Positions 2,639-59,690 of a stretch of 64,000 nucleotides of DNA are shown here, piece by piece. The translations under genes were made by a program, and so were the position numbers. The notes beneath the pieces were generated by a model. The model saw nothing but the letters and a program-made list of their open reading frames with translations. It made no database searches and was not told the origin of the DNA. The stretch covers positions 124,001 to 188,000 of the forward strand of contig NC_089433.1 of the NCBI RefSeq assembly GCF_026210795.1. The letters are read 5' to 3'. Within the stretch, counting starts at the first letter, position 1, and each line of letters begins with the position of its first letter. This DNA is from Rhizophagus irregularis (taxonomy: Eukaryota; Glomeromycota; Glomeromycetes; Glomerales; Glomeraceae).

Positions 2639-2911
2639 TATCTTGGCTTCTAGTAATTCAATTTAAACAAACTTTTTTTTGTTTTATAAAGCTAGATTTG
2701 TAGAACTAAATGAGTGCTATAAATTAAAAAAAAGTTTATTAAAATTGAAGTATTACTAGAAGTCAAGATAATTGCATTATAATAATTATTAGACTTCTAG
2801 TGATTTAATTTGAACAAACTTTTTTTTTGTTTTGTAAAGCTAAATTTGTAGAGCCAAATAAAAGTTATAAACTAAAAAAAAGTTTATTAAAATTGGATCA
2901 CTAGAAGTCAA
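2639..2911. repeat. Tandemly duplicated foldback element, two hairpins
   Basis: Two palindromes (2639-2770 and about 2790-2911) share arms that read 'cttctagtaattcaattt' or close to it and meet at a short loop. Both are followed by the same spacer 'attgcattataataatta' (2771 and 2914), so hairpin plus spacer was duplicated with a period of about 143 bp. The inner arms (poly-T followed by 'gttttataaagct') resemble the core of the foldback element at 24138-24432, so they are probably one family. Confidence 0.7.
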
Positions 2912-3339
2912 ATAATTGCATTATAATAATTATAGAAAAATAATTAAATTACTTACATTTATATTTAAATATATAAATATCTCGTGATATATATAAACCT
3001 GATCTGAAGCTTGACTCCCTCCACCTCATTTACCCCAGTATCACCATCACTTTTTTACCCCATATGATTTTTTGTGACGCATTAACCTCATTTGCTTTTT
3101 TGCATAATATTTATCTTAAAAAAATTTTAATTGCAAAATTTTTCACTTCTTATACCTTTAAAATATTAAAAAAATAAAAAAATTAAATTTTCATATTTAA
3201 AGTATATAAAATATTGATTTCTTGCTCTTAAAATTTATGTTTTTAAATTTAATAAAAAAATTATTTACTAAAAGTTAATAAAACAATAAAAATAATAAAA
3301 AATGCTTTATTGATAAAAAATGATAAGTTCATTTCACTT

Positions 3340-3560
3340 AGTGTTCTGAATGAGTCATGTCGAGTCGATTATTGAACAAAATCGTACTCAACTTGGAAAA
3401 ATTGAGTCAAGTCAAGTCAAGTTAAAATTACAATAATTTTAGACTTGACTTGACTCGATTCATAAAAAGCATTAAATCGAATCGATTCGAATCAATTCGA
3501 GTCTAACTCCGAATTCGAATGAATGTCAAGTTTCGAGTTTAAACCGAATCAGACTCTATT
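3340..3560. repeat. Inverted-repeat relic rich in GACTTGACTCGA words
   Basis: The stretch holds 'gtcaagtcaagtcaagtt' followed by 'gacttgacttgactcga' in opposite orientation, then several ATTCGA words. It looks like a small foldback element. The ends and any target duplication could not be defined. It is similar in flavour to the outer element at 20891-23024. Confidence 0.4.
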
Positions 3561-3649
3561 TTTTCATTGTAAAGTGTAAATGATTTATATAGATTATTTA
3601 TATTATTAGTTATTCTTTATTTAATAAAATAATGTAAATAGCAAACATT

Positions 3650-10851: not shown

Positions 10852-13800
10852 ATGGCTATATACTCGTGTCCACATTGTGAAAGAGTCTTCAGTCGTCGTG
10901 CTTCTCTACGAAATCATGTGAAAACTCACGATGATATAATTGATAAAGTTCTTAGAGAAATTGCTGAAGAAGTAGAACATGAACAAGAGGAAGTGGGTGA
11001 CGATGAACGACTTGAGGAGGCGAGCTACGAAGAGGAAGAGGAAGAGAGGGGGAGTACTAATAATGATGAAGTACAAGAGGAGGTGAGCTACAAAGAAGAA
11101 AGTGAAGATAATGATGAAGTACTAGAGGATGTGAACTACGAAGAAGAAAGGGAAGTTAATGATGAAGTACTAGAGGATGTGAACTACGAAGGGGAAGAGA
11201 AGACGAAGGGGAAGAAGAAGAGGAAGGGAGCAATAATGATGAACAACTAGAAGAGGTGAGCTATGAAGAGGAAGAGGAAGAGGAAGAAGAGGAAGAGGAG
11301 GTGAGAAATCAACGTTAAATGAAATTAAAATAATTTATACTTTTGTGTGCGTCTATATATATCTATATATAGAAAGCGATCGACATATTTATCAAGTATT
11401 TATTGTCTATTAACATCCATATATAGGAAGTGATTGATGAATCAAGAGACATTGAAATCGAATATTCGCTAATTGACATTGAACCAATCCTAACCTTCGA
11501 ATCTCTTGATATTAGAGTAACAAATATACCAGAATTTCCAAGCGAAGAGTTTGGAAATTTTATGGAGTTGCTTACTAAATGGAATTTGTCTGATGCATGT
11601 GGTAACGATATACTTAAATTTTCAAAAAAGATTTGCCGCGATAATGTAATTTTACCTACGTCAGTAAAAAAGGTCGTCAATTGTTGGATCAAATTGTTGT
11701 ACCACATATTTCTTTTAAAAAAGCGCCTATCATGACATATAAACAAGAAACGTATTATCTTCATTATCGTCCGATTTTTGACATTATAAAGGAATTGTTG
11801 AGCAATAAGGATATATTTGCCCATTGTACTTTTAAATTTACACTATTAAATCATAACAGAGAAAGAATATATAACGAACAATATAATGGACAATGGTAGG
11901 AAAGAGTCCAAAAATCACTTCCTAATGGTGCAAATGTATTGTCAGTAATTTTATATTCGGATACTATGACACGTGATCACTTAGGAAAGACCAGCGAACA
12001 TCCCATTTATTTGACACTTGGTAATATAGTTAGTTGGCGCAGAAATAGGCCTGATGCCAAAATACTTTTGGGTTATCTGCCGATCCTAAAGGCAAAAGAT
12101 ATTTCACAAAAGAGGTCAAAGAGTTTTCGGTTAGCCAAGCGAGTCCTTTATCAATATGCTTTAAATATATTGACACGATCGTTACTTGACTATAATGGTG
12201 AATTTGATCTTCAAACAGATAATGGTATAAAGTGGTGTTTTCCGTTTATTTCCGTAATGTTAGGAGATTTACCAGAAAATGCTGCAGTAACTTTAACATT
12301 TAACTTTGTTAATTGTCACCACCCTTGTCATAAATGTTTGGTGGAGTGTGAGAAGCTGAACAATGTGGAGTTAACAAACGATCGAATTATCTTAAGAACA
12401 CCAGAAAATATGAGATGTCTTGTTGAACAAAATTCTGCACAACAATATTCTCTACACGATATGAAAAACATCTTTTGGAATTATCCGTACGTATCACGTG
12501 ATTTTTAAAGAAAGTGTGTTTATTTTGCCAATTATTTTCTAATATATTTACTCAAAAATAAATGATAGTCAGTTAAATATTTATTTGTCAACAATACCTG
12601 ACCGAATGCATCATCTCGACTTGGGATTGTTTAATTATCAAGTGATCTACACAAGGGTGTTGTTAAAAGAATTGTGTGGTCAAATAGCGGTTGACGAACT
12701 TGATAATCGTTTGGCTAAAATCCCACGATTTTCTGGCCTTAAGATATTCAAGAATGGCCTGGAAAATATTAAGCAGTTTACTGCCAATGAATTTCGAAAT
12801 ATGATGAAGATATTTGTTTTCGTCATAGAAGGAATAGTCATAAACCACCACAAATCATCGATAAGTACATCCCGAGCCAAATGATCTGATGAAGCATTGG
12901 TTGACGTGTATTATTATTGGAATAAGATGTATTTATACAGCCGACGGGAGTATTTTAAGGAATCAGAGCTGGTGATTTTTGATGTATGATAGCGAGATAA
13001 TATGATGATTAGTTTTTTATGAATATTGCAATTAACATGATTATATTTTATTTTGTTTAAAGAATCTAATCAAACAATGGGCAAAGAGCTTTATAAAACT
13101 ATTTAAAGAATATTCTCTATCAGAACTTCGATTACCAAAGCTGCATAATTGGTGCTATCATATCATTAAGACAATTAGAGAATATGGAGCAATCAACGGG
13201 TTTACGACAGAAACGTATGAATTTTTACATAAAGAAGCTGTAAAAATACCCTATAGGTCTGGTAATAAGCGTGACCCAACAGATCAAATGATTAAATCAG
13301 TTGGTATTACAGCTAGTACGATATTCAATGCATTATCACAAATTAATATTGTTATATTATATATAAGTTTACCGAAAAGGGATAATTAAATACTTACTTC
13401 AGCGTACAAATGTTAATAGACGCAAACAAAAAACTCTAATGAATAGTTTGTTAGGCACATTTAATTTGCAAGATTTTGATGCGTTTTTCAATAATTACCG
13501 ATCAAACAATAGCTTGGCCCGTGAAGCTCTAACGGCTCTAGAATATTTTCTGGAATTGTTAAACGAGTTTTTAGATTTATGTGAAGGGTTAACCGATAAT
13601 GAAACTATTAATATTAGTTGGTATAGTTATGCTAATATTTCTTCAAGCGGGGATTACATTAGAGCAAAAAGCTTGTATTATAACGAACCATCATTTAGTG
13701 ATGTGTCAATCAGCATGAGCAAGGAAGAGTCTGAAGATTATAATACAGCCGAAGGTGGTGCATGTTTTGGCAAGGTACAGAATTTTATTTAATATTGAAC

Positions 13801-20882: not shown

Positions 20883-21419
20883 ATATCTAGCGAATTTAAT
20901 CGTTTTGAAACTCGTCAAACTCGAGTTGAATTTGAGTTTGAATTTGCGTTGATGAAATTGTTAATTTTTGTTAGATTTGACTTGATTAAATATGATTTAA
21001 TTTTACAATTAGAAAAAATAAATTAAACGATTAAAATTGTAAATAAAAAATAGTATAATAAATTCATAATATCTAGTGAAATAAATTAGTTTGTGTGAAC
21101 TAAGGTTGCCTGCCGAAACCTATTTGGCTTAATGCCGAAAGGAGAAACTCCACATATAATGCCATAACTGCGAAACTGCGAAATTGCGAAACTGCCAAAA
21201 CTTGCGAAACTGCCAAAACTTGCGAAACTGCCAAAATTTGCGAAACCTTTATAATGAGTTTATCCATAGTTTCGGCATAATAAATAATAATATTTTATAT
21301 GAATTTCGGCATAATTACAGCATTCCTAATATTTTATTTTTAATTTCAGTTTCTAATAAATTTACATGTAAATAAACAACGTTATAATATTCTAATAATA
21401 ATATTATTATTGAAAAAAT

Positions 21420-22560
21420 CCTAACAAATGTAACAGTCATGATTTTTTTTCTGGAAATTCTACATAAAAAAAAATAAATTAATTAAATTTATCAAAAAAA
21501 AAAAATAACGAAACCCTTCTCCCGGTACTTTACCTTGATTACAAAAGTCTGGTTATATTTTTTCATCTGACAATCCTACAAAAAGAAAAAAAAATCAATT
21601 AAATTTATTAAAAAAAAATGATGAAAACACCTTCTCTGACCCTCCCTCACCTTAATTTTAAGAGTCTGGTCATGTTTTTCATAAATTATGAAAAAATTAA
21701 CGAAAAACTTTCACTGGTCCTCCTTTACCTTAATTTATAAATCTGTACATGTTTTTCGTCCAGCAATACTACAAATAAGGTTGCTTGTCTAAACCTTTTC
21801 AAAATCCTACGATTAGTTTCGTCAAAATTTTACTATAGATTTATTATAGTTTTGGCAGAGTTTTGGCAGTTTCGGCATTTATAATAAGTTTCGGCAGTTT
21901 CGCTTTTCTCCAAAGTTTCGCCAGTTTTTTAATATAACTTTAATATAGTTTTGGCAGAATTTCGCTTTTCGGCGAAACGCCATCTTGCCTAAACCCCTAG
22001 GTTTCGGCAAGCAACCTTAACTACAAAAAGAAAAATAAACAAGAAATTTATTAAATAAAAAAACAACGAAAAACCTTCCTCAGCCCTCTCCTTTACCTAA
22101 ATCCCAAAGTCCGGTCATGTTTTTCATCCAGAAACACTACAAAAAAGAAAAAAATAAATAAGTTAAATTTATTAAATAAAAAAACAACGAAAAACCTTTC
22201 TTTAGCCCCTCTTTTACCTAAATTCTAAAGTCCGGTCATATTTTTCGTCCGGCAACACTACAAAAAAGAAAAAAATAAATTAGTTAAATTTATTAAAATA
22301 AAAAACAACGAAACCCTTTCCCTCAACCCTTTCTTACCTCATTTCCAAAGTCCGGTCATATTTTTCGTCTGGCAACCTTACAATAAAGAAAAAATAAATA
22401 AATTTATTAAAATGGACCCTTTTCCGGTCCTTTCTTACTTCAAAAAGTCTGGTCGTGCTTTTTGTCTGGCAATCCTACAAAACGAAAAATAAACTATTAC
22501 ATTTTTTAAATAAAAACTTCCTGTCCGGACCCTCCTTAGTTCTTTACCTCATAATTTTTG
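21420..22560 (-). repeat. Minisatellite A: exon-like 40-nt blocks with splice borders
   Basis: Units of about 120 bp. On the minus strand each holds a T-rich tract ending TTTTTGTAG, a conserved block of 40 nt, and a donor GTAAA or GTAAG. Examples are 22218-22257 and 22097-22136; 22338-22377 is the same block with its acceptor changed to TAA. The blocks can be read as LPDEKYDRTLEFR-like peptides (FLDEKHDRTLGFR in another unit). Several units are degraded. Transcription is not shown by sequence alone. Confidence 0.6.
21776..22019 (+). mobile_element. hAT-like MITE, TAAGGTTGC family, copy 2 (nested)
   Basis: 244 bp with TAAGGTTGCTTG ends and a perfect 8-bp duplication ACTACAAA (21768-21775 and 22020-22027). 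It interrupts one unit of the minisatellite inside its larger relative, exactly at the acceptor-like CTACAAA. It is nearly identical to the copy at 29428-29675, so both moved recently. Confidence 0.92.
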
Positions 22561-23032
22561 TCCGAAAACCTCAATACAAGAAAAAAGAGATCATCAGATG
22601 ATTTGTACTATGCAATCTGTCTGATAATTTAACTTTCCTGTGCCGAATTGGCGTAAATCATTGAGAATTCGATAAATTTGGCAAATTTTGGCAATTACGT
22701 CTATATAAATTCAATATGGCTGAATACGGCATTGCGTCAAAAAAAAAATCCATGCCGAAATTAATCATAATTCATAATGTTGCCGAAACTAATATATGTA
22801 TATCATATGATGTACTATGCCAAAATAGTTACGGCAGCTTAGACAGTTTTGGCAGGTTTCAGCAGTTATGGCATTTCAATATTTTAGACCAATTTTGCGA
22901 AACTAGTTTTAGCAGTTTCACATACGCCATCCCGCTGAAACCTCCTAGTTTTGGCAAGCAACCTTAGTGTGAACTCAAATTGAACTCGAGTTGAACTCAT
23001 ATTTGACACGATTGAATTCGTTCGATATTTAG

Positions 23033-23288
23033 ATAATAACTTATTATTTGTAATTGTCTGATATAAATATATTGCAAGGGCATCTTAATCTTATTACCTG
23101 CATATATTATTTTTAATTTTTAAATAAAAAAGAAATTTATTTTTGCAGATATCTTAAACATATTACTTGCATATATTATTTTGAATGTTAACTAAAATAA
23201 ACAGAATTTCAAACTAGAGAAAATATTTATAAGGGAAGTATACGTCTTTTTTTTTAAAAAAATAATCATTTCTCAACAAATTTTAATC
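23033..23288. other. A+T-rich stretch
   Basis: No feature recognised. Confidence 0.4.
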
Positions 23289-23590
23289 ATGCCTATAGAA
23301 TGGACCTGTGCAGCTACTGACCATTTGATAAGACAAAAAAGGTAAAATAAAATATTTTTCTAGATGTCTTCTTTCTTTTATATTACTTACATTATTCTTT
23401 TATCTAATAATTCAATAAATAATATCATAATAATGTAAAGACATGATAATGAGCGCTACCATGATATAGATGGTAGAAGTAGGGTCTCCTTCTGGGAGAC
23501 AACTGCAAGATGACTCTACCAGGACCTACGATTTTGTTACTCTGCAAGACAGTGTGAGCAATGATTCTGAAATTTAATTTGGAATTTCAA
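23289..23590 (+). pseudogene. SANT/trihelix-like DNA-binding gene fragment, broken
   Basis: ATG 23289 opens MPIEWTCAATDHLIRQKR. An intron (GTAAAATAAA to about 23440, ATGTAAAG) leads to an exon reading NERYHDIDGRSRVSFWETTAR and then YSARQCEQ. The order W-T-x-A-T-D-x-L-I, G-R-S-R-x-S-F-W-E, Q-C resembles the Myb/SANT (trihelix) DNA-binding fold. Three TGA codons follow quickly (after TTAR, after QCEQ and one codon later), positions where CGA (Arg) or TGG would fit. No continuation was found downstream. It may derive from a transposon-linked or multicopy family; it is certainly non-functional. Confidence 0.45.
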
Positions 23591-23599
23591 TGTTAGTAA

Positions 23600-24029
23600 A
23601 GCAATAATAAAATAAAGATAATAAAAAAAAATGTATTAACTGTGTTGATATTTTTAGGATTTTGTTGAGTGGATAAATGGAGGTCATCGGTCTGGGTGTG
23701 GGTGGAGCAAGCTCTCACCCACCTTCGAATCTATAACCTGTCGCAATTTTTCCATTCTGAAGCCTTTTAACAATTGTATAGGAGTGTGGTTAGTTTTTCC
23801 ACTCTATGACCCTTTTGGTTGCTATATTTGAGGTCGAGGGTGTGGCTTATTTGCTGGCCTTTTAAGTTGTCAAAATGGTGTAAAAAATCGTATCAGATGG
23901 CACAATAAATTTGCGATCAATTTTGGCTGACATTATGCTTTAATTTCAGCAGAGCTTTTAGGCAGAATATCTTGGTTTCCAGTAATTAGATTCGTGTGAT
24001 CTTTAGCTTATTTGAGTAAAGATAGTTAT
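23600..24029. other. Unrecognised stretch
   Basis: More balanced composition (about 23640-23960) than most of the window, with no open frame longer than about 40 codons in either strand. It may be the remains of an element or gene; not identified. Confidence 0.35.
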
Positions 24030-24037
24030 CAGTTCTA

Positions 24038-24110
24038 GAAGACCGCGGTCCTACGGTCTTACACCATAAAAAGACAGACTGATCTGTCTTAGTGTAAGAT
24101 CACGATCTTT
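24038..24110. mobile_element. 73-bp hairpin MITE with 8-bp target duplication
   Basis: GAAGACCGCGGTC... pairs with the right end (...GATCACGATCTTT), and AAGACAGA/TCTGTCTT forms the tip. A perfect 8-bp duplication CAGTTCTA flanks it (24030-24037 and 24111-24118). It is a tiny non-autonomous element, hAT-type by duplication length. Confidence 0.75.
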
Positions 24111-24137
24111 CAGTTCTATATCACATATAATAAGACA

Positions 24138-24432
24138 GGACTCCGGATATCTAATATAAAGGTCATAATGGACTTTTGGCCAAAAACACCCCTTTTTGCT
24201 GAAACTCAAAAAATCGTTTTTTGTAAATATCTCAGCATCCAGTAATTCAATTTTAATGAACTTTTTTTTATTTTGTAGCCCTCATTTAGCTCTACAATTT
24301 AAAAAAAAGTTCATCAAAATTGGACCACTGGATGCCGAGATATTTACAAAAAACGATTTTTTGAGCCCCTGAAAAATGGGCCAATCTGCCGAAAGTGTGA
24401 CTTATGACCTGTTTTGGAGATATCCGGGGTCC
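24138..24432. repeat. Foldback element (GGACYCCGGATATCT ends)
   Basis: About 140-nt arms mirror each other from GGACTCCGGATATCT at the left to AGATATCCGGGGTCC at the right, passing through 'aaaaaatcgttttttgtaaa' in both arms. The core resembles the hairpins at 2639-2911. No clear target duplication was found. Confidence 0.7.
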
Positions 24433-25439
24433 TCATCATGCATTTACTATTATTGTATTAGTGACAATCATATGATCATTTTCGTTTAATCAAACACTTG
24501 GTAATCATAACCTTTTAGCTAAATATGAGTTAAGCATGATAAAACTAGTTGTATTTATACAAAAATGCATCATTGTGTTTAAACTTACACAGTAGTTAAA
24601 AAATTTTTCCCATCGCAATTTTTTTTTTTATTAAATTTTTTTTTTTTTTTGAATTATAGCTGAAGAGCAAGAACAAGAGGATAATTATAACTCTTTTCCA
24701 TATGAATCCTTTATAGAGGATCAAATTTTTATTGATTATGAGGATGAGGAATATAAAGAAAGATATAGTGAAATAACAATAGAAATGACTGAAAAAGGAA
24801 CTGAAATTACTGAAACTGAAACTGAAACTTCTAGTATTAGATCTAAAGAATTAAGACAAGCTCGAGTTTGGAAACATTTTGAAAAAAAGACAATTGAAAA
24901 AGATGATAAACAAACTGAAACTTATATTTTATGTCATATTTGTGAAGGCCATTTTTCTGCAAACAATTCTACTACAACTCTTGAACGTCATTTAAAAGCT
25001 AAACATTTTGATGTACACTAGTCGAATGATGGAATATCGGTAATAAATCAGTTACCTGATAATCATCTGATAATCCACATATCGTATTCTGATATTTCCA
25101 GATTAGTAATTCTGATATGGTACCGATTAATGGAAGAGATAGTTATATTTAAATTACATATAAGTTACATATCGATTTATAAATATTATGAAAATATCAC
25201 ATAAATATCATACTCATATTGGTATCCATATACCTCAATAATACCTGTATGATACTTGTATGATCATTATATGTATTATATACTGATAGATCAATAATTT
25301 TATTCTGAAATTTGTATAAATTGTATTTATTATATTTATTGCAATATTCTATCTAATGCTATCTATCGTATAATCTAATGTCCTATTTAATGTCCTATCT
25401 ATCGTATAATTTAATGTCTAAAATTTGAAATTTAAAATC

Positions 25440-26200
25440 TACAAAAAGAAAAAGAGATGATTAGTATTAATTTAAAGAAATTAAAGTTTTGGGAATAATT
25501 TTGAACTTACCGAAATTTTATTATACATCCAGAACTAATCACCTAAAAAAAAGAAAAAAAAATAAAACGTAAGTTAAGTTTCATTAAAAAGATTCAAAAG
25601 AAGCCTGTTGAAAACTCACCAAAATTTCATGCCTAGGATGAATATCTTGAAGTTTTGGAACTCACCCGATCTAAAGCCTGGAAACTAAAGCCAATATTTA
25701 CAAATAATTTAATAAATTTTTTTAAAAAAAATAAAGTTTTGTAAAACTTCTGAAACTCACCAATCTAATACCCCAAGGATCAAAGCCGATATCTACAAAT
25801 AAAAGAAAAAAATATTAATTAAATTTTTTAAAAAAATTGAAGTTTCAAAGTAAAACGAAACTTCAAAATCCACCTATCCAACATCTAAGAATTCAAAACT
25901 GATATTTATAAAATAAAAGAAAAAAATATTAAATTAATTTTAAAGAAAAAGATAAAGTTTCGTAAAATTTCAAAACTCATCAATCCAAAGAATCAAGGCC
26001 GATATCTACAAATAAAAAAAAAATATTAATTAAATTTTTAAAAAAAATTAAAAACAAAACTTCAAAACTTATCTACCCAAAGAATCGAAGCCAATATCTA
26101 CAAATAAGAGAAAAAATGTTAAATAAATTTAAAAAAATAAAGAAGTGAAACTTCACTTCATAACTCACCTATCCAAAGCCCTTATATATGCCTATACGAA
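25440..26200 (-). repeat. Minisatellite B: exon-like blocks with GTGAGT donors
   Basis: Units of about 100-110 bp. On the minus strand most have ATTTGTAG, then an exon-like block of 25-32 nt starting ATATYGGCTT, then a donor GTGAGT or GTAAGT (for example at 25511, 25620, 25665, 25760 and 26170). The blocks read IGFDPWGIR, IGFSFQALDR or IGLDSLD. Two units have the donor G changed to A. Confidence 0.6.
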
Positions 26201-27560
26201 AAAAATAATTTTTTCTTAACTTACCAGTCCGAAATAGCGTCTAAAAAAGGTTCAGAACCTGCAAAAAAAATAAGAAAGAAAGTTAGTATACGTTTATATG
26301 CCTTCTATTTAAAAAAAATTTTTTTCTTAACTTACCAGTCCAAAATGGCGTTTAAAAAAGGTCTGGAATATACAAAAAAAAAATAAAAAAGAAGGTTAGT
26401 ATACGCCTATACGCCTTCTATTTAAAAAAATAATTTTTTCTTAACTTACCAGTTCAAAATGGCGTCTAAAAAAGGTTCAGAACCTGCAAAAAAAATAAGA
26501 AAGAAGGTTAGTATACACCTATATACCATCTATTTAAAAAAAAATTTTTTCTTAACTTACCAGTCTAAAATGGCGTTTAAAAAAGGTCTGGAATATACAA
26601 AAAAAAAAAAAAAGGTTAGTATACGCCTATACGCCTTCTATTTAAAAAAATAATTTTTTCTTAACTTACCAGTCTGAAATGGCGTCTAAAAAGGGTTCAG
26701 AACCTACAAAAAAAATAAGAAAGAAGGTTAGTATACGCCTATATGCCTTCTATTTAAAAAAAAATTTTTTCTTAACTTACCAGTCCAAAATGGCGTTTAA
26801 AAAAGGTCTGGAATATACAAAAAAAAAATAAAAAAGAAGGTTAGTATATACCTATATGCCTTCTATTTAAAAAAATAATTTTTTCTTAACTTACCAGTCT
26901 GAAATGGCATCTAAAAAAAGTCCAGAACCTACAAAAAAAAAATAAAAAAGAAGGTTAGTATACATCTATACGCCTTCTATTTAAATAAAATAATTTTTTA
27001 TTTAACTTACAGTCCAAATGGCATCTAAAAAAGGTCCAGAACCTACAAAAAAAAATAAGAAAGAAGGTTAGTATACGCCTATACGCCTTCTATTTAAAAA
27101 AAAAATTTTTTAAATTTACAGTCTGAAATGATGTCTAAAGAAGGTCTAGAACCTATAAAAGAAGAAAGTAGAAGGTTAGTAGCACCTATACGCCTTCTAT
27201 TTAAAAAAAAAATTTTTTAAACTTACCGGTCTGAATGGCGTTCAAAAAAGGTCTGGAACCTACAAAAAGAAAAAGTAGAAGGTTAGTATATGCCTATACA
27301 CCTTCTATTTAAAAAAAAAAATTTTTTTAAAACTTACAGCGTATAAAAAAAGTCCAGAATCTACAAAAAGAAGAAAGTAAAAGGTTAGTATGCCTATACA
27401 CCTTCTATTTAAAAAAAAAATTTTAAAACTTACCAGTCTGAATGGCATTTAAAAGAGGACCAGAAGCACTCCGGAAGTTATAAAAAAAGAATAAAGAAAA
27501 GGTTCTATTTATTAATATATATATATACATATATTTAACTTACTGGTCTGAACCTAAAAA
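26200..27560 (-). repeat. Minisatellite C: serial intron plus microexon cassettes
   Basis: Thirteen units of about 110 bp (donor positions near 26222, 26332, 26446, 26557, 26666, 26777, 26891, 27007, 27116, 27223, 27334, 27430, 27540). Minus-strand order in each unit is donor GTAAGTTAAG, then GTATACTAACC containing the perfect branch-point word TACTAAC, then a T-rich tract, acceptor CAG or TAG, and a block of 27 or 34 nt (26336-26362, 26450-26483). The intron between those two would be 87 nt. The plus strand has weaker borders and Lys-rich short ORFs. Confidence 0.7.
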
Positions 27561-27779
27561 AAAAGAGGGAAGGAGTATGCATGTGACTCCATCACTCCAT
27601 AAAAAAAAATTTCTGAAGTTACTGGAAATAAAGTTAGTTTATTATTATTATAAGCCGATCATTATTATATAGAAAATACTAAATTTAATATCAGCATAGT
27701 ATATTATATGATATACATATTTCCGATCAGTTCCTAATTAATTTACTGATCGTTGATAATCTTTTTTTTAAAAAAAATT

Positions 27780-28330
27780 ATTTACCTGTACTTCTTTTTT
27801 TTTGTAGGACATCAGAATATTTTTTTTTATAGGACAACTTTTTGGATTTCTTCTTTTTGTAAGATGTCAAATACTGGACTTGAATAAACTGTACAAGTAA
27901 ATAAAGTGAGTGTTATATGTGCATGTAAAAATAAAGCTCAATTCATTAAAGAAACAATACTAATGTTTCTTTTTCTAATTTTTTAGGATGCTGAGCTTCT
28001 TAGATTTCTTGTCTTTTGTAGGGATGTGAACCAGACAGGTGAATGGGATGGACGCATAGGAATAAAAAATATATTTATATTCCTTGGACTTCTTGGGTGA
28101 ACCTGAACTTGAATTTTAAGTATGTAAGTTAGAGGGAACTGAAGGGAAGGTTTTTTTTTATTAATATATTATATATTACTAACATTTACTCTAATTTTTT
28201 TTCTTTAGTCTACCAAACATTCTTGGTTGAACCCAGACTTGAAGATAGTATGGGTGGGAGTTTTACTTAATTGCTTTAAAGAAATGAATGTATTAATATT
28301 TCTTTTTTTACTTTGGGATGTGAACTTTAA
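27780..28330 (+). repeat. Intron-like sequence on the plus strand within the 3.8-kb element
   Basis: A model intron runs from GTAAGT (28124) through ATTACTAACATT to TTTCTTTAG (28208), 85 nt. The flanking blocks are similar to each other (CTTCTTGGGTGAACC and TTCTTGGTTGAACC). Acceptor-like TTTTTGTAG/GGACATC words occur near 27806 and 27830. Polarity is thus opposite to that in arrays B and C. Confidence 0.45.
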
Positions 28331-29427
28331 CGTATATCATTGATTAAGTCCTTTATCAATAAAAAATCAGTTTATTACATACAATAAAATAAAAATATTA
28401 CAATAAATAATTTTACAATAAATTTCAACTACATATAGATTTATTGGTAACCGTTTGAAATTAAAAAAATTATTATACAGTAAAAAGATTGGAATGCTAA
28501 AACTATGGCAAAACTCTAAAATTTTAACACTTCAAATACGATTATCTTAAAAAATTATTTGTACAATAATATAAATATCATATAAATATTATATTATTAT
28601 CATATAAAAATCAATAATTTATCAGATATCCAATAAGAACCAGATAACTTATTGATATGAGTTTAAAAAAATTATTTATAATCATGTGAATATCACTGGC
28701 CTATCGGTTACTAATATATGTTCAATTTTTAAAATGATCTGCTAGTGGCATATCGGTTTATGATATTTTTCTGATTTTATCTGATATGTCACAACTCGAT
28801 ACCTCATCATTCGACCAGTAGTATATAAAGACTTAGGTCAAGTTAAATCTAATGTAAAACCCTGGACAGTTGATATACAACAAGAAAAGCATAATCTTTT
28901 TGTTAATTGGATTATCACAGACTAGCAATCATTTACCATTGTTGAAAATCAAAGTTTTAAAAAATTTATAGCATCTATTCAACCAAAATACAAAATTCCA
29001 TCTCAACACACAATAAAAGATATGATAATGAAAAAGTTTGAAAATGCACAAATTCAAATAAAAAACTACTTTCAACTTTCAACTTCCAAAATTTCGTTAA
29101 CAATGGATATGTGGATAACAATTAGTTCATTAGGTATTTTGGCAGTAACAATTCATTTTATAAAAGATAATTGGCAGTTTGATCACTTTGTATCAGATGT
29201 ATTGTATATTCCTTTATCATACACAGCTTTAGCAATTAAAGATTCTATTATCAAAATTGTTTCAGAATTAAATATTGCAGATCGATTAATTGGAATTACT
29301 AGTGACAATGAAGCAAAGATGTTAGTTCTGACTTGACTGATTAAAGAAGATCTTAATTTATCAGAATTTCGCCACTATCGCTGTGCAGCACATATTTTAA
29401 ACCTTGCTGTTGAAGCAGCATTTAATA

Positions 29428-43421: not shown

Positions 43422-44456
43422 CTAAAGTAAATAATGTTGGTTATTATTGATCGCGTTTTGGTTATCCTCGTACGAAATAAATTGTTGTGGATATTCGGGA
43501 TATCCATTATTTAAATTAAAATTGTTATAATTATCAAAATATATCAAAAGATCTAATGGATTATTAAAAGGTGATGGTAATTCATTAGAAGCTTCTGATA
43601 CACATTGTGGAAATAAATCTGGTGATTCGACAAATTCCGGCATTGGTGACGATGAAGATGATGAATATGATGATAATGAAGAAGACCCGGGTGAAAGCAA
43701 TTGAGGTGAAGCTAATTGTGGGGGAGATGGAAGTAATTGTGGTGAAAGTATTTGTGGTGAAAGTATTTGTGGTGTAATTTTTTGTTCTGTACCATTATTA
43801 TTATTATTATTATTATTGTTATTTGAATTTATCAAATTTGTTGAGTTTTCTATTGAATCATTATTATCATCATTATTCGTCGTATCTCCTAGAAAATTGG
43901 TTACACTAAAAGTATTTAACATTGAACTATCAACAACTACACTATTCTCGCTAAAAACGTGCGATTTAAATATTTGTCTTTTCTTTGGCTGAAATCTATA
44001 ACCGGGATATAATTCTTGATGAAGTATTACTGCTTGCAATGCGAGGATATCATAGCGTTCTTTAACTTCCGCGGAGATGTTGGTCCATAATTGTTTGCTT
44101 TGACGACATATGTCTGGCATTGCGTATCTGTAACCTAACTTTCTTAGTTCAAGCATATAACAATTCTTGAACAGAAAGTAGGAGTTCGGCGGTCTCGGAG
44201 GTACCACTTGCTTGCGAGGCTTCCTTCTTGTACTAATCAATTCAGTTACAGTGTATTTTGGATTATAAACACAATCTAAATCTAAATTTTCTGGAATACA
44301 TTTATGATTTTTTGTAGAAGAAACTGTTGAAGAAGTTGAAGAAACCGAAGAAGTTGGTAATGAAGAAGGACGATAGACGGAGTTGAGACCATTTTGTTGT
44401 TTGCTAAGTTCTTCAATGGCAACTTGAAAGGCTTTGGATTTTCCCATTTTTGTCAT
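43422..44456 (-). CDS. MATA-type HMG-box transcription factor
   Basis: An intact single-exon gene of 344 codons. The first true ATG is 44456 (MTKMGKSKAF); the frame is open to 44495 but begins with TTG. One HMG box spans about residues 86-158, with the typical start VPPRPPNSYFLFKN, the core KQLWTNISAEVKERYD and the end YPGYRFQPKKR. This is the MATA_HMG subclass, related to fungal mating-type and SOX-like proteins, which bind and bend DNA in the nucleus. Before the box is a Ser/Thr-rich segment. After it come an Asn run (about 211-221), SPQ repeats (about 228-257), a Ser run and a Tyr/Asn-rich tail, typical of activation regions. Such genes are strongly multiplied in Rhizophagus, so being the mating-type gene itself cannot be assumed. 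A TATA-like run lies near 44780. Confidence 0.9.
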   Translation of the reverse strand: MTKMGKSKAFQVAIEELSKQQNGLNSVYRPSSLPTSSVSSTSSTVSSTKNHKCIPENLDLDCVYNPKYTVTELISTRRKPRKQVVPPRPPNSYFLFKNCYMLELRKLGYRYAMPDICRQSKQLWTNISAEVKERYDILALQAVILHQELYPGYRFQPKKRQIFKSHVFSENSVVVDSSMLNTFSVTNFLGDTTNNDDNNDSIENSTNLINSNNNNNNNNNNGTEQKITPQILSPQILSPQLLPSPPQLASPQLLSPGSSSLSSYSSSSSSPMPEFVESPDLFPQCVSEASNELPSPFNNPLDLLIYFDNYNNFNLNNGYPEYPQQFISYEDNQNAINNNQHYLL

Positions 44457-44495
44457 TTTTTTTTTTATTTTTTTTTGATTGAACGAATTTAACAA

Positions 44496-47400
44496 AGTAT
44501 AAACGAGTAAAAGAAGAAAAAAAAATATCGAGTTTATAAACGAACTAAAGCTAAAAATTTTTATATTTTAACGAGTAAAAAAAAAATTTATCGAGTTTAT
44601 AAACGAACTAATTTGAAAATTTTGTATTTGGTATTTTTTTTTTCCTTGCAACAAAAATTTCATCCTTATTTATATTTAAAATTTCTGATAATAATGTATG
44701 TATTCAATTGTGAAACATAATTATTAAATTTGGTATAGTGTATGATGATTATTGTGATTATTGTGATTATTAAAGATTATATATATACTTTATAATTTAT
44801 TTATTGTCCCTTTGTCCTGAGTTAAAATACTAAAAAATTTATCGGAATGATTTTCTGACTCAGTTCCTAATACTGTATAAATTAAGAAGTTTTAATTTAA
44901 TTTCATTTATGCAAATTTAATATGCAAATAAAATATACAAAATAATATACAATAGAATAAGAATTGATTATTTAATTTATATGATAATCGCAAAAAAAAA
45001 AAATAAAAAAATAAAAAAAAAAATATATACATTTATTTTTTTTTCAAAAGAGTATCACAAGATGTGTTTTTTCACTTCTTCACGGAAAAACAACAAAAAT
45101 TCGTGTGAAACTGTTTCTAAATTTATTTTTTTTTTTATCTGATAAGAATTTTGCTTTTTACTTTCATTTATTTTATTTTATTTTATTTTTTTTCTTTAGG
45201 TAAAGATAAAAGAGATTTCTTTTTTCGTTGAAAACCGGAAAATTGGCGTCTTGGGATCATGTTTGATAAAAAAAAAAAGTAGAAAAGAAAGAATTTAAAG
45301 AATTTACTAAGAAAACTTGCACACATTTACACATCATATGCATTAATGTGTACATATTCGGAATAGCCGTGATTTAAAATAAAATCTTTTATAAAAGTTT
45401 ATAAACACGTAAGATTATAAAATATTGATATTATATTTATTTTGTACGTGATTAAGTGATTTATATTACTGGTAAACTGAAACGATACCGTATCCAAAGT
45501 ACCCATTAAATTTCTATCGGTTTTAAAGGTCCGTATTACACTTATATTAAGTATATACCATATTTTAAGTATAAGGAACCAAAATCGGTTATCCTTGTCC
45601 GTAAGTATAATGAATATATAATATATATTTATTTTTAATTTCATATAATTTTCAAGTTTTAAATTTCCATATTAGTTAATAAGATAATTAGAACTAATAA
45701 TATTCGAGACTGAAATGCACATCTAATACTTTAGTAAATTTATAAGTAAAAAGGTAAAAAGAATTTTTAAAAAATTATATTTAGAATTTATAAGAATCAA
45801 AATTGGACATAAAATTAACCTAATTAAAAAAAATCATTAAATTTCAACGTGAAATTGACTTTTTTCCAAAAATAGAATTTCATCAATGATATTCTGTTTA
45901 AAAAATTTACTAGTTTGCCTTTTTTGATATCAAGAAATATAAGTAAATTTAGTTCGATATCACATGATCGACACTAAGAACAATTTATTTCATTGTTTCA
46001 AATAAAATAGTTCAAACATTTTCGTCATTCTACAAAAAAAACGAAACCAATTTCACATGATATATTATGATATATTAAATGGCGCATGCGCAGTAAATCA
46101 AGGGACCAGTTCAATATATTATTATAATATTTTTACTTGTTAGAAAACTTTAATTTGTACATTATTATTACATGTAATCATTATTATTAAAAATTCTTGA
46201 AGCAGACGCCAATCCCTCATGTAATGAAATGATCTTCTTTACCATATTAATCGATTGTACAAACAAGACGCATGGTCTAATTAAATGATGCATTTATACC
46301 GGAATCCTCATTTCCGACATGCGTTTTAAAATGATTTACTTATTTTACTTATTTACCGAATTTATCAATTTTTTTAAACCGAAACTGTATTTTTTGACTA
46401 ATGTTTGACTATTAATATTATTGAATTTTTTTTTTTTTAACCAAAGGGATTCTCTTATTTCGGAATAATGATTGCGTTTCATAAAAATTTTTTTTTCATT
46501 AATAAAGAAAAACATATAACAAATAAAATATAAATATGTAATGTATGTCATAAATTTTTTCATTATTTCAAAGAGATTTCATCCTCACTTCGGAATCAAA
46601 AGTACGTCATGCAAAGTGACCATAAAACCATCTTATAATAGCAATAATGTCGTAATAATTAATGCGCATGATTATGATAGTACAGAAGAATGATTATTTC
46701 GACAATTTATTATTGTTGAAGAAAGATGATACAAGTAGGTCAGATGAAAGGGTCCATTATGTGATCACGCACATGATCACATGAGTAATCATTGATATAT
46801 AGATAATAAATATGTTGTACATAACCCACATAACCCACATAACCCAGCATGACCCAACATAACTCACATAACTCGACGGTTAATATTTTTTATATGCAAC
46901 ACAGTACGATAATATTAATAAGTTGAAATTTAGCCAGACAAATTATTTATTGCAATTTATAGTAATTAATAAAAAAGCGTTGAAGCAACTTTATTTTTTA
47001 TAATTTCTTTATTAAGAAGTTTGAAGAATAGTAATATTACTCCATTTAGAACATCATAATTTATACAATCCTTTCTTTTTATTATTATTATTATATTTAT
47101 TATCCAATAAAAAATTATTATTTTACTATTACTAATACGCAATGCAATGGCCGCTGATTGAAATGCTGCAATGAACCTGCAAATGATGGTTGACTTCTCT
47201 TTAGAATTGGATGACAAAAATAATCAAATGATATTTTTTGACCAAATATTTCATAATTTCTAACATAGAAGAAAAAGAAGAAAGAAAAAAAAAAATATGA
47301 AAGGGAATACCAGGAATAGGAGGTAGTGAGGAAGATGACAAATATAAACATAAATAATAATAGTAGGTTTTTCCGCCAAAGAAAAAAAAATTTTTTTTTT

Positions 47401-54772: not shown

Positions 54773-55089
54773 AAGTCACACAGCATACACAACATATTAA
54801 ACGTTGAATGTTACTTTACATAGTATATCTGATATGCAAAAGTAATAAAGTTGATTGAATTTCTCAGTGTAATATGTTCTTTTCACATGATAATTTATTA
54901 ATTTCTTAATCTCGGAAATCTTTGTTAAAACAAGTATAACAAGTTTTATTACAGGATTTATGTGCACTTCATTGTCAAATTTATATATATATAATACCTA
55001 TTTTGTAACCAAATCCATTTGCTTCGCTTTTTAACTCTCGTTTTTTATTTTATTTTTTTCTTTTTTTTTCTGTTTTCAAACTTTAAAAA

Positions 55090-55924
55090 ATGGGAGCTTC
55101 TTATTCGACATGTGCAATTTGTGTAGAGTCTCGGTATACTTCAGAATTTAAAGCAGTTACAAAGAATTGTAAACATACGGCATTAACTTGTCAGACATGT
55201 GTTAATAGACACATTGAAGCTGAATTAAACAATAAAGGAAATTTGGAAATTATATGTTTAGTTGAATCGTGTAGACAAATTATGGATTATAGTGATATAG
55301 AAAATGTCGCAAGAAAAGAGGTAATGGTAAGATATGATAGAATGTTGGTTAATAGTGCATTGGGTGGAGATCCAAATTTTAGATGGTGTAAAAATTCTAA
55401 ATGTGGATCTGGTCAAATTCATAGTAGCGGACGTATGTCTTTTAAATTTTCTTTTCAATTATATGTCATGGTTATGTTTTTAACGATAATTTTTGATTTT
55501 CTAGACAATGAACCTATAATGAGATGCGAATCATGTGGTCAAAAATCTTGTTATACACACGATGTTCTTTGGCATACAGATTTAACGTGCACTCAATATG
55601 ACGATATTATTAAAAAAGCGGAAGAGGCAACTCAAGATTTACTTAATCGAGAAACTAAAGCTTGTCCTAAATGTGGTGTAAGAATCACTAAAAATGGTGG
55701 TTGTAACCATATGACTTGTAGAATTTCGACTTGTAAACATGAATTTTGTTGGTTGTAAGTATTTTTCTATCTTTTCTTTTTTTTTTTGGTAAAGAAAAAA
55801 AATTTAAATAACTGATAATTTGAAAATTCTTTTATTTTTTTTATCTAGGTGTTTGGCTGATTATAATGCGATTCGTAAAAATGGAAATAAATCTCATCGG
55901 AGAACTTGTCAATTTTATGCCTAA
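55090..55924 (+). CDS. RBR-type (RING-IBR-RING) E3 ubiquitin ligase, short
   Basis: Three exons (55090-55432, 55505-55754, 55849-55924) with GT-AG introns of 72 and 94 nt give 222 residues. RING1: C8, C11, C27, H29, C34, C37, C56, C61. IBR: C100, C105, C122, C125, C130, H133, H138, C143. RING2: C168, C171, C186, C191, C196, C199, with H214/C218 as the likely last ligands. The acceptor cysteine that forms the ubiquitin thioester should be C181, in KNGGCNHM, matching the parkin-type motif. The protein takes ubiquitin from an E2 and passes it to a substrate. It is close to a bare RBR unit, with no extra domain for substrate choice or autoinhibition. All metal ligands seem present, so it is probably active. 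Such genes are multiplied in Rhizophagus. Confidence 0.9.
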
Positions 55925-58419: not shown

Positions 58420-58630
58420 TTTTATAAAAAAAAAAGTTATAAAAGTTAGCAATATGTGTAAATTTCTTTTTATTGGAAATAAAATAATATACAAATGATA
58501 ACACTTTTTTTGTTCTATTTCAGTCCTTACTTCATTTATTTTTTATCCGTATCGTCTTGTTGTTTCTTTTTACTTCTATCCATTTCATTTAGTCTTTGTA
58601 AAAGTTGATTATTAGTTACTCTTTAAATAT

Positions 58631-59690
58631 GATGTGTTGGATGTTCAACAGTGTGAGTTGTTCAACAGTATGAGGTGTTGAAATAAAAAAATACAGTATG
58701 TGTTGATTCAGCAGCACGAGTGTCGCGCATTCCGCCCGCCCATCTTTTAATTGTATTTTCTGTTTTCTTTCCTCTCCGATTTTCTTCATCTTCCTCCTGA
58801 CTTCTTTTTCTCATGATGATAAATGATTTTTTTTTGTATTTTTTATTTTACTCCTTTTTTTTTGAAATTGTTGAACTAAAAAAAAAAGAATTTTTTTTTT
58901 GAATATGATGTGTTGGATGTTCAACAGTATGAGTTGTCCAACAGTATGGGAGGTGTTGAAATAAAAAAATACAGTATGTGGTTGGTTCAGCGCGCATTCT
59001 GCCCGCCCAACTTTTAATTGTATTTTCTGTTTCTTTCCTCTCCGATTTTCTTCATCTTCCTCCCCGATTTTTTCTCATGATGATAAATGATTTTTTTTTG
59101 TATTTTTTATTTTAAACTCCTTTTTTTTTGAAATTGTTGAACTAAAAAAAAAGAAGATTTTTTTTGAATATGATGTGTTGGATGTTCAACAGTGTGAGTT
59201 GTTCAACAGTATGAGGTGTTGAAATAAAAAAAATACAGTATGTGGTTGGTTCAGCAGTACGAGTGTCGCGCATTTCGCCCGCCCATCTTTTAATGTATTT
59301 TCTGTTTCTTTCCTCTCCGATTTTCTTCATCTTCCTCCCTGATTTTTTTTCTCATGATGATAAATGATTTTTTTTGTATTTTTTATTTTAAACTCCTTTT
59401 TTTTTTTGAAATTGTTGAACTAAAAAAAAGGCATTTTTTTTTTTGAATATGATGTGTTGGATGTTCAACAGTATGAGTTGTCAACAGTATGGGAGGTGTT
59501 GAAATAAAAAAATAGAGTATGTGGTTGATTCAGCAGTACGAGTGTCGCGCATTCCGCCCGCCCATCTTTCAATTGTATTTTCTGTTTTCTTTCCTCTCCG
59601 ATTTTCTTCATCTTCCCCGATTTTTTTTTATCACGATGATAAATGATTTTTTTCGTATTTTTTATTTTAAACTCAAAAAAAGAAAAAAGT
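58631..59690. repeat. Satellite, four units of about 264-279 bp
   Basis: GATGTGTTGGATGTTCAACA starts each unit at 58631, 58908, 59172 and 59451. Each unit also has CGCGCATT(C/T)CGCCCGCCCA, a long CT-rich tract (TTTCCTCTCCGATTTTCTTC) and TCATGATGATAAATGA. Minus-strand ORFs such as RKYIKRWAG are repeat by-products. Confidence 0.9.

Follow-up and report, generated by a model that had tools for sequence, protein, structure and literature searches.

Candidate intron–microexon cassettes in series within a CACTA-like transposon of Rhizophagus irregularis

The DNA considered here, hereafter the window, is a stretch of 64,000 nucleotides from Rhizophagus irregularis (NCBI RefSeq assembly GCF_026210795.1, contig NC_089433.1, positions 124,001 to 188,000 of the forward strand), and positions are counted from its first letter. 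Within it lies a DNA transposon, hereafter the carrier, the interior of which contains a tandem array whose units have the layout of a short spliceosomal intron followed by a very short exon. A preliminary description of the window had noticed this array and overlooked its transposon context, a second and unrelated series of introns and exons at 25400–26180, and the recurrence of the design across the genome. As read from the sequence, the features of the locus on which the argument depends are the following.

24653–25021, plus strand: open reading frame (ORF) with a BED zinc finger (Pfam zf-BED, E=4.1e-8), interrupted or bordered by the insertion
25013–25015, no strand assigned: left copy of the target site duplication, GTA
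25016–28820, no strand assigned: CACTA-like, apparently non-autonomous DNA transposon (the carrier), with ends CACTAGTCGAATGATGG... and ...CATCATTCGACCAGTA
26199–27560, minus strand: intron–microexon array with 13 donors and 11 complete units of intron plus microexon
26259–26335, minus strand: example intron of one unit type, ending in TTGCAG, 77 nt, then a 34-nt exon at 26225–26258
26363–26449, minus strand: example intron of the other unit type, GTAAGTTAAG...TACTAACCTTC...TTCCAG, 87 nt, then a 27-nt exon at 26336–26362
28821–28823, no strand assigned: right copy of the target site duplication, GTA

The array was called by Tandem Repeats Finder over 26199–27465 with periods of 225 and 445, and is built from units of about 110 bp. 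Its 13 donors, the number given in the preliminary description, lie on the minus strand at 27543, 27433, 27337, 27226, 27119, 27010, 26894, 26780, 26669, 26560, 26449, 26335 and 26224; 12 of them read GTAAGTT and one GTAAATT, the full donor GTAAGTTAAG being present at seven. A perfect TACTAAC had been ascribed to every unit, and is indeed found 43–50 nt 3' of the donor in 11 of the 12 inter-donor units, the one without it being that which starts at 27543. The branch word is followed by a T-rich tract and a YAG acceptor (TTGTAG, TTATAG, TTGCAG or TTCCAG). In other words, 11 of the 12 units satisfy the layout of a U2-type intron, with GT donor, branch word, pyrimidine tract and AG at their usual spacing. 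The introns measure 73, 78, 74, 77, 82, 87, 77, 82, 77, 87 and 77 nt, which is shorter than the 85–90 nt first proposed, and the exons 23, 33, 33, 32, 34, 27, 34, 27, 34, 27 and 34 nt, such that the description of blocks of 27 or 34 nt holds for the part of the array nearest to 26200 and fails elsewhere. The junction that had been singled out, 26449/26363, is exact. Similarly, the acceptor position is kept in most units, as claimed, except that in three units GTAG has changed to GTAT, with a usable AG (TTCCAG) further downstream, within what is exon in other units, and that the first unit has ATAA where the related copy at locus L009 (C5:5824322; loci elsewhere in the genome carry such L numbers) has ATAG, by which the acceptor is lost.

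That these signals are complete and ordered on one strand is not expected from the composition of the repeat. Strict introns number 11 on the minus strand of the array and zero on the plus, whereas 20,000 Markov shuffles of the 225-bp unit, tiled to equal length, gave a mean of 0.0065 strict introns and a maximum of six; five of the 20,000 shuffles reached six and none reached nine. Scoring against shuffled units, which had been suggested at the outset, hence bears out the reading of the repeat as a tandem array of splice signals. Along the array TTCCAG units alternate with TTGTAG or TTGCAG units, and the periods indicate a stepwise duplication, from single units to a 225-bp pair and then to a 445-bp block of four units.

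The terminal repeats and the 3-bp duplication of the carrier, which are the features used for the assignment, fit the CACTA/EnSpm type, with one end base departing from it: the left end is CACTAGTCGAATGATGG, and the right end, read on the other strand, is TACTGGTCGAATGATGAGG, one base off CACTG. Allowing up to three mismatches, the end word has 59 matches in the genome, against none for a mirrored control. A relative, L032, has both ends (CACTGGTC and CACCGGTC) and its own 3-bp duplication, ATA/ATA. The copy of one carrier end at L009 is 96% identical over 490 bp; only three GTAAG donors are present at the corresponding place, after which the sequence is unrelated, so that the number of units differs between copies. 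The list of ORFs contains none of 110 aa or more in the carrier interior, a result to be read with the fact that no search aimed at a transposase was made.

The cassette design is not confined to the window array and recurs genome-wide. Homologs of the array unit occur at 22 or more other places in the genome, and solitary homologs exist. A strict pattern, consisting of branch word, acceptor TAG, exon of 15–45 nt and donor GTAAGT, has 666 matches in the genome as against 124 for the mirrored pattern and 80 for one with an anagram donor, some of these last being themselves visibly such cassettes. Among 97 of the matches listed (three further ones, which are the window array itself, are left out), 49 have a neighbour within 1.2 kb, 48 having one on the same strand and two on the opposite strand. 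The matches listed split into many unrelated sequence families, and five loci read in detail contain one-strand runs of introns with exons of 20–60 nt. A set of 262 kb, selected by homology or by transposon ends and hence not drawn at random, includes 42 tandem arrays. In 21 of these, strict introns exceed what unit shuffles give (P at most 0.02), and in every such array they are confined to a single strand; for the window alone the figure is two of six. A looser microexon signature occurs 15 times in the carrier (14 on the minus strand), eight times in the remaining 56 kb of the window outside 21000–29000, and twice in seven chaperonin loci, both in L043 and on the strand opposite to the gene.

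The preliminary description had made its reading depend on the splice signals being better conserved than other positions of the repeat, and in 27 homologous units from other loci they are: the splice columns (donor, branch and acceptor) have a mean pairwise identity of 0.856, and the remaining columns, homopolymer runs excluded, one of 0.748 (P=0.014). Identity is lowest in the exon columns, at 0.694.

A further regularity concerns the branch site, which in many families sits inside a palindrome with arms that vary from family to family. A stem score of 18 is attained in 12 of 37 de-duplicated intron-like contexts, where swapping the arms between introns leads one to expect 3.5; in other contexts the figure is four of 64, against 1.4 expected. 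The form GAAnnG-TTACTAA-CnnTTC has 377 matches genome-wide against 0.55 predicted from base composition alone, and neither its mirror nor the form with a left arm of CTT instead of GAA has any. Among 100 matches listed, another match lies within 1.2 kb on the same strand for 58 and on the opposite strand for none; the spacings among the matches listed cluster near 130, 260–285 and 385–395. The arms covary. In selected loci the hairpin occurs, in a somewhat broader form, at 20 different sites, and 36 of the 40 cells of its two free pairs are base-paired (32 Watson–Crick and four G-U), with A-T and C-G among the combinations at the one pair and C-G, T-A and G-C at the second. In some families a further hairpin covers the donor or lies just 3' of it, for example AAAGATTC followed across the boundary by GTAAGTACGAATCTTT. 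In the window array itself the branch hairpin is weak, having the arms GAAGG...CCTTC and a long loop, and in homologous units these window-type arms have pairwise identities of 0.88 and 0.86 against 0.72 for the loop.

Ordinary introns of the same genome provide a comparison. A parse was found for five of seven chaperonin (CCT) genes, giving 27 introns that are usually 60–119 nt long, with some parses longer; GTRAGT is present in two of these introns and TACTAAC in one. Folding z falls below -2 in 10 of 35 cassette families and in none of the 27 chaperonin introns (P=1.7e-4), the representative of the window array having a z of only -0.6.

The anatomy of the array, the transposon ends with their duplication, the genome-wide recurrence, the excess conservation of splice signals and the covariation of the hairpins are established observations. 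The explanation of them that is on balance probable is that the carrier interior is a chain of transposon-borne intron–microexon cassettes, which would be spliced by the host when transcribed to give a gene-like RNA likely to be of benefit to the transposon. Each cassette would pair a non-coding exon of 20–60 nt with a short intron of the U2 type, whose signals (GTRAGT, TACTAAC, T-rich tract and YAG) are close to consensus, and would be multiplied by tandem duplication. Since a duplicated cassette carries its own splice sites, an array could grow without breaking splicing, and arrays of this kind would therefore be expected to recur. Cassette families unrelated in sequence occur at either side of this one element, as well as in further transposons of the genome. 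Transcription of the element would let the spliceosome of the host take out one intron after another, reducing about 1.3 kb of array to about 0.35 kb of joined non-coding microexons. Such an RNA would resemble a well-spliced gene transcript and, like one, would be stable, undergo export and attract less silencing, from which the transposon would be likely to profit, either in its expression or through protection against silencing. Stranded short reads and long cDNA exist for R. irregularis DAOM197198, Nanopore RNA-Seq being mentioned in PMC10234402, so the question of splicing is directly open to test.

A wider proposal, which we advance tentatively, is that the cassettes form a large mobile superfamily with a new intron architecture. 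The branch adenosine would be presented in a hairpin loop with covarying arms (GAAnnG-TTACTAA-CnnTTC), a second hairpin often standing at the donor, and the cassettes would stand in tandem within DNA transposons to give long, non-coding and fully spliceable RNAs. The cassette, rather than a gene, would then be the unit of selection and splicing the selected trait, and arrays may seed introns of host genes.

Several observations weigh against active splicing of the carrier. In the window one unit is without an acceptor and three have it shifted; the representative intron folds no better than its shuffles; and when the 12 window units are taken by themselves the splice columns are again the better conserved, but with P=0.07. 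The array is antisense to the adjoining BED-finger ORF, which also leaves unsupported, as worded for this insertion, the earlier suggestion that the array lessens the harm done by inserting into a gene. Since strong donor and branch words were required when the cassette families were gathered, comparing their signal strength with that of the chaperonin introns is in part circular; comparing the folding is not. The end pair of L013 has no matching target triplet, as judged by eye, in a comparison of end pairs that took in the window, L032 and L013, the remaining loci covering one end only. A genome search for the exon–exon junctions of two families, with up to three mismatches, gave no matches and hence no processed copies, a negative that says little in that fungi may not retrocopy such RNA. 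Lastly, the near-identical copies L012, L013 and L014 (about 99%) give no sign of constraint, with substitutions at one of 81 splice-site positions, two of 474 exon positions, six of 599 intron positions and three of 486 positions outside, these copies being too young for a test of constraint; in L014 one donor has been lost by a 4-nt deletion and another has a substitution.

Much of this would be accounted for if the array were a fossil, that is if part of a gene rich in introns, or of a non-coding RNA gene, had been captured by the transposon, and replication slippage or unequal exchange had then multiplied one intron–exon stretch, leaving inherited splice signals that are now unused. The unconstrained young copies with their deleted donor, the lost and shifted acceptors of the window, exons without a reading frame, the decayed units at 25400–26180 and the failure to find processed copies from the two junctions searched are all in accord with such a history. 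Selection at some stage is nevertheless needed to explain why one grammar recurs in many unrelated families and at hundreds of genome sites, why the splice columns are conserved in excess and why the arms of the branch hairpin covary. This is the main rival explanation, and taken whole it appears rather unlikely: recurrence, conservation and covariation oppose a purely passive origin, while the young-copy test and the broken sites favour decay at present.

It is also conceivable, and a good deal less likely, that splicing has no part in the matter and that the palindromes and GGAC-rich blocks are transposase binding sites, or DNA structures that drive amplification, the resemblance to introns being a by-product. 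CACTA elements are known to contain repeated internal binding motifs, the palindromes here are prominent, and the exons share a motif, YYRGAC, in 14 of 55 families delimited loosely, where 2.0 were expected, which may reflect common descent or an exonic signal. Binding sites would not, however, require that in all 21 flagged arrays the four intron signals stand in order and on a single strand, nor would they explain why an anagram of the donor cuts the pattern count from 666 to 80, or why the loop of the palindrome is exactly the branch word, the swapped-arm control giving 0. Weakest of all is a micro-exon protein gene, in which alternative joining of short exons would yield variable repeat peptides as in schistosomes: serial short exons, strong splice sites and some single exons open in one frame suit it, but the lengths of 58 exons from 28 families are spread evenly enough over the three frames (21/16/21 modulo 3, where divisibility by three with an open frame was looked for), neighbouring window units differ in exon length by one or two bases, single-base changes that would shift the frame, and no part of the unit is less conserved than the exons, all of which makes this candidate, and the repeat peptides first suggested, very improbable.

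The nearest counterparts of the cassettes among known elements differ from them in several ways. The CACTA/CMC/EnSpm elements, with the fungal Plavaka group, share CACTA/CACTG ends, the 3-bp target duplication and a non-autonomous interior, and differ in that the carrier interior is made of serial intron–microexon cassettes; CMC and Plavaka families are described as prevalent in R. irregularis (PMC11075540, PMC8647823), and the words ‘intron’ and ‘splic’ have no occurrences in the main text of either paper. Introners and fungal introner-like elements are likewise repeated introns tied to mobile DNA, and for the fungal ones stable predicted structures or inverted repeats are described (PMC8469720). 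They stand singly in host genes, however, whereas the introns here are in tandem, with microexons of their own, inside a transposon; the main text of an introner survey (PMC9860276) mentions neither Rhizophagus nor Glomeromycota. Schistosome micro-exon genes also contain series of very short exons (PMC4350168), but encode secreted proteins, whereas the cassette exons have no common frame. The zipper and downstream stems of yeast introns are a further case of local intron RNA structure that bears on the use of splice sites (PMC12350175), the difference being that in the cassettes the branch word is itself the loop. A search of open-licence papers found no description of such intron–microexon arrays in the text available.

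In maize, dSpm and Ds insertions are spliced from mRNA, the DNA transposon itself offering the splice sites. There, most of the insert is removed by means of one or a few sites, whereas the present insertion contains about a dozen introns in series, on the strand opposite to that of the adjoining ORF. Splicing of the cassettes would mean that DNA transposons can be built of spliceosomal introns, which goes beyond their being merely tolerated as introns. It would also provide hundreds of natural, sequence-diverse tests of what the spliceosome requires, including branch sites in hairpin loops, and would bear on the origin of introns and on how transposons pass as genes. On the practical side, gene finders that are repeat-masked or trained on introns may misread such arrays as genes.

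Beyond the principal array, the window contains further candidate cassettes.

21436–22560, minus strand: second, unrelated intron–microexon array, with TTTTGTAG, then an exon of about 40 nt that contains GCCGGAC...GACCGGACTTT, then a donor GTAAAG...
25400–26180, minus strand: continuation series of units unrelated to the array, several decayed, with donors GTGAGTT and acceptors TTTGTAG followed by ATATCGGC...
27859–27986, plus strand: opposite-strand intron candidate with its branch word within a palindrome (GAAACAATACTAATGTTTC) and an uncertain donor, several GT words lying close together
28120–28208, plus strand: opposite-strand intron candidate, GTATGTAAGT...TACTAAC...CTTTAG

In the continuation series a hairpin-like GAAGTGAAGTTTCACTTC lies 3' of one donor, and the unit family recurs in L034, L035 and L036. 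The placing of minus-strand units to the left and plus-strand units to the right is shared by the window, L013, L032, L033, L034 and L010, and is not seen in seven other two-strand loci (L009, L015, L016, L017, L020, L022 and L038). Given these mixed layouts, divergent transcription from the middle of the element is a lead to follow. In the second array the unit-shuffle test is passed by the part at 22020–22401 and failed by that at 21436–21682. This array apparently lies inside another transposon family, with the end word AAGGTTGC..., and short elements with such ends also interrupt intron–exon arrays in L036 (about 1300–1550) and, as a fragment, in L010 (about 6780). At 21101–22967 of the window is a transposon-like element with the end word AAGGTTGCYTGCCGAAACC, inverted at its right end, which contains the second array; an element of about 240 bp with the same end word is nested in it at about 21778–22021, both being read by eye.

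At other loci, long C/T-rich stretches (CCCTTTCC...) lie directly 5' of the first donor of a cassette series in L038 (about 1200–1400) and L040 (about 425–710), and are possible promoters or leaders. In L013, an array of 64-nt blocks at 2750–3561 can be read on both strands, the minus strand giving TACTAAC and GTAAGT and the plus strand T-rich TTTAG and GTTAGT. L012, L013 and L014 (here about 98–99% identical) also share a non-spliced tandem array of 188–191 bp, with 5.5, 4.5 and 3.4 copies, respectively, which from these copies amounts to a recent change in copy number. A tandem array of the window at 58622–59674, with 3.8 copies of a 279-bp unit at 89%, has no strict introns on either strand.

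As for the surroundings, searches of the window found no structured-RNA family in Rfam at the gathering threshold and no tRNA. An ORF beyond the carrier (28926–29336, plus strand) is without a Pfam match and has what we take to be a hAT-like look. Elsewhere in the window are a Plavaka transposase fragment (11900–12505, plus strand, E=1.4e-22), the domain of which has 123 matches in the genome, many sharing a frame of identical length, 203 aa, Plavaka elements being a possible autonomous partner of the carrier; an HMG-box ORF of 381 aa (43422–44567, minus strand, E=3.6e-7); and an IBR-domain ORF (55087–55755, plus strand, E=3.9e-16).
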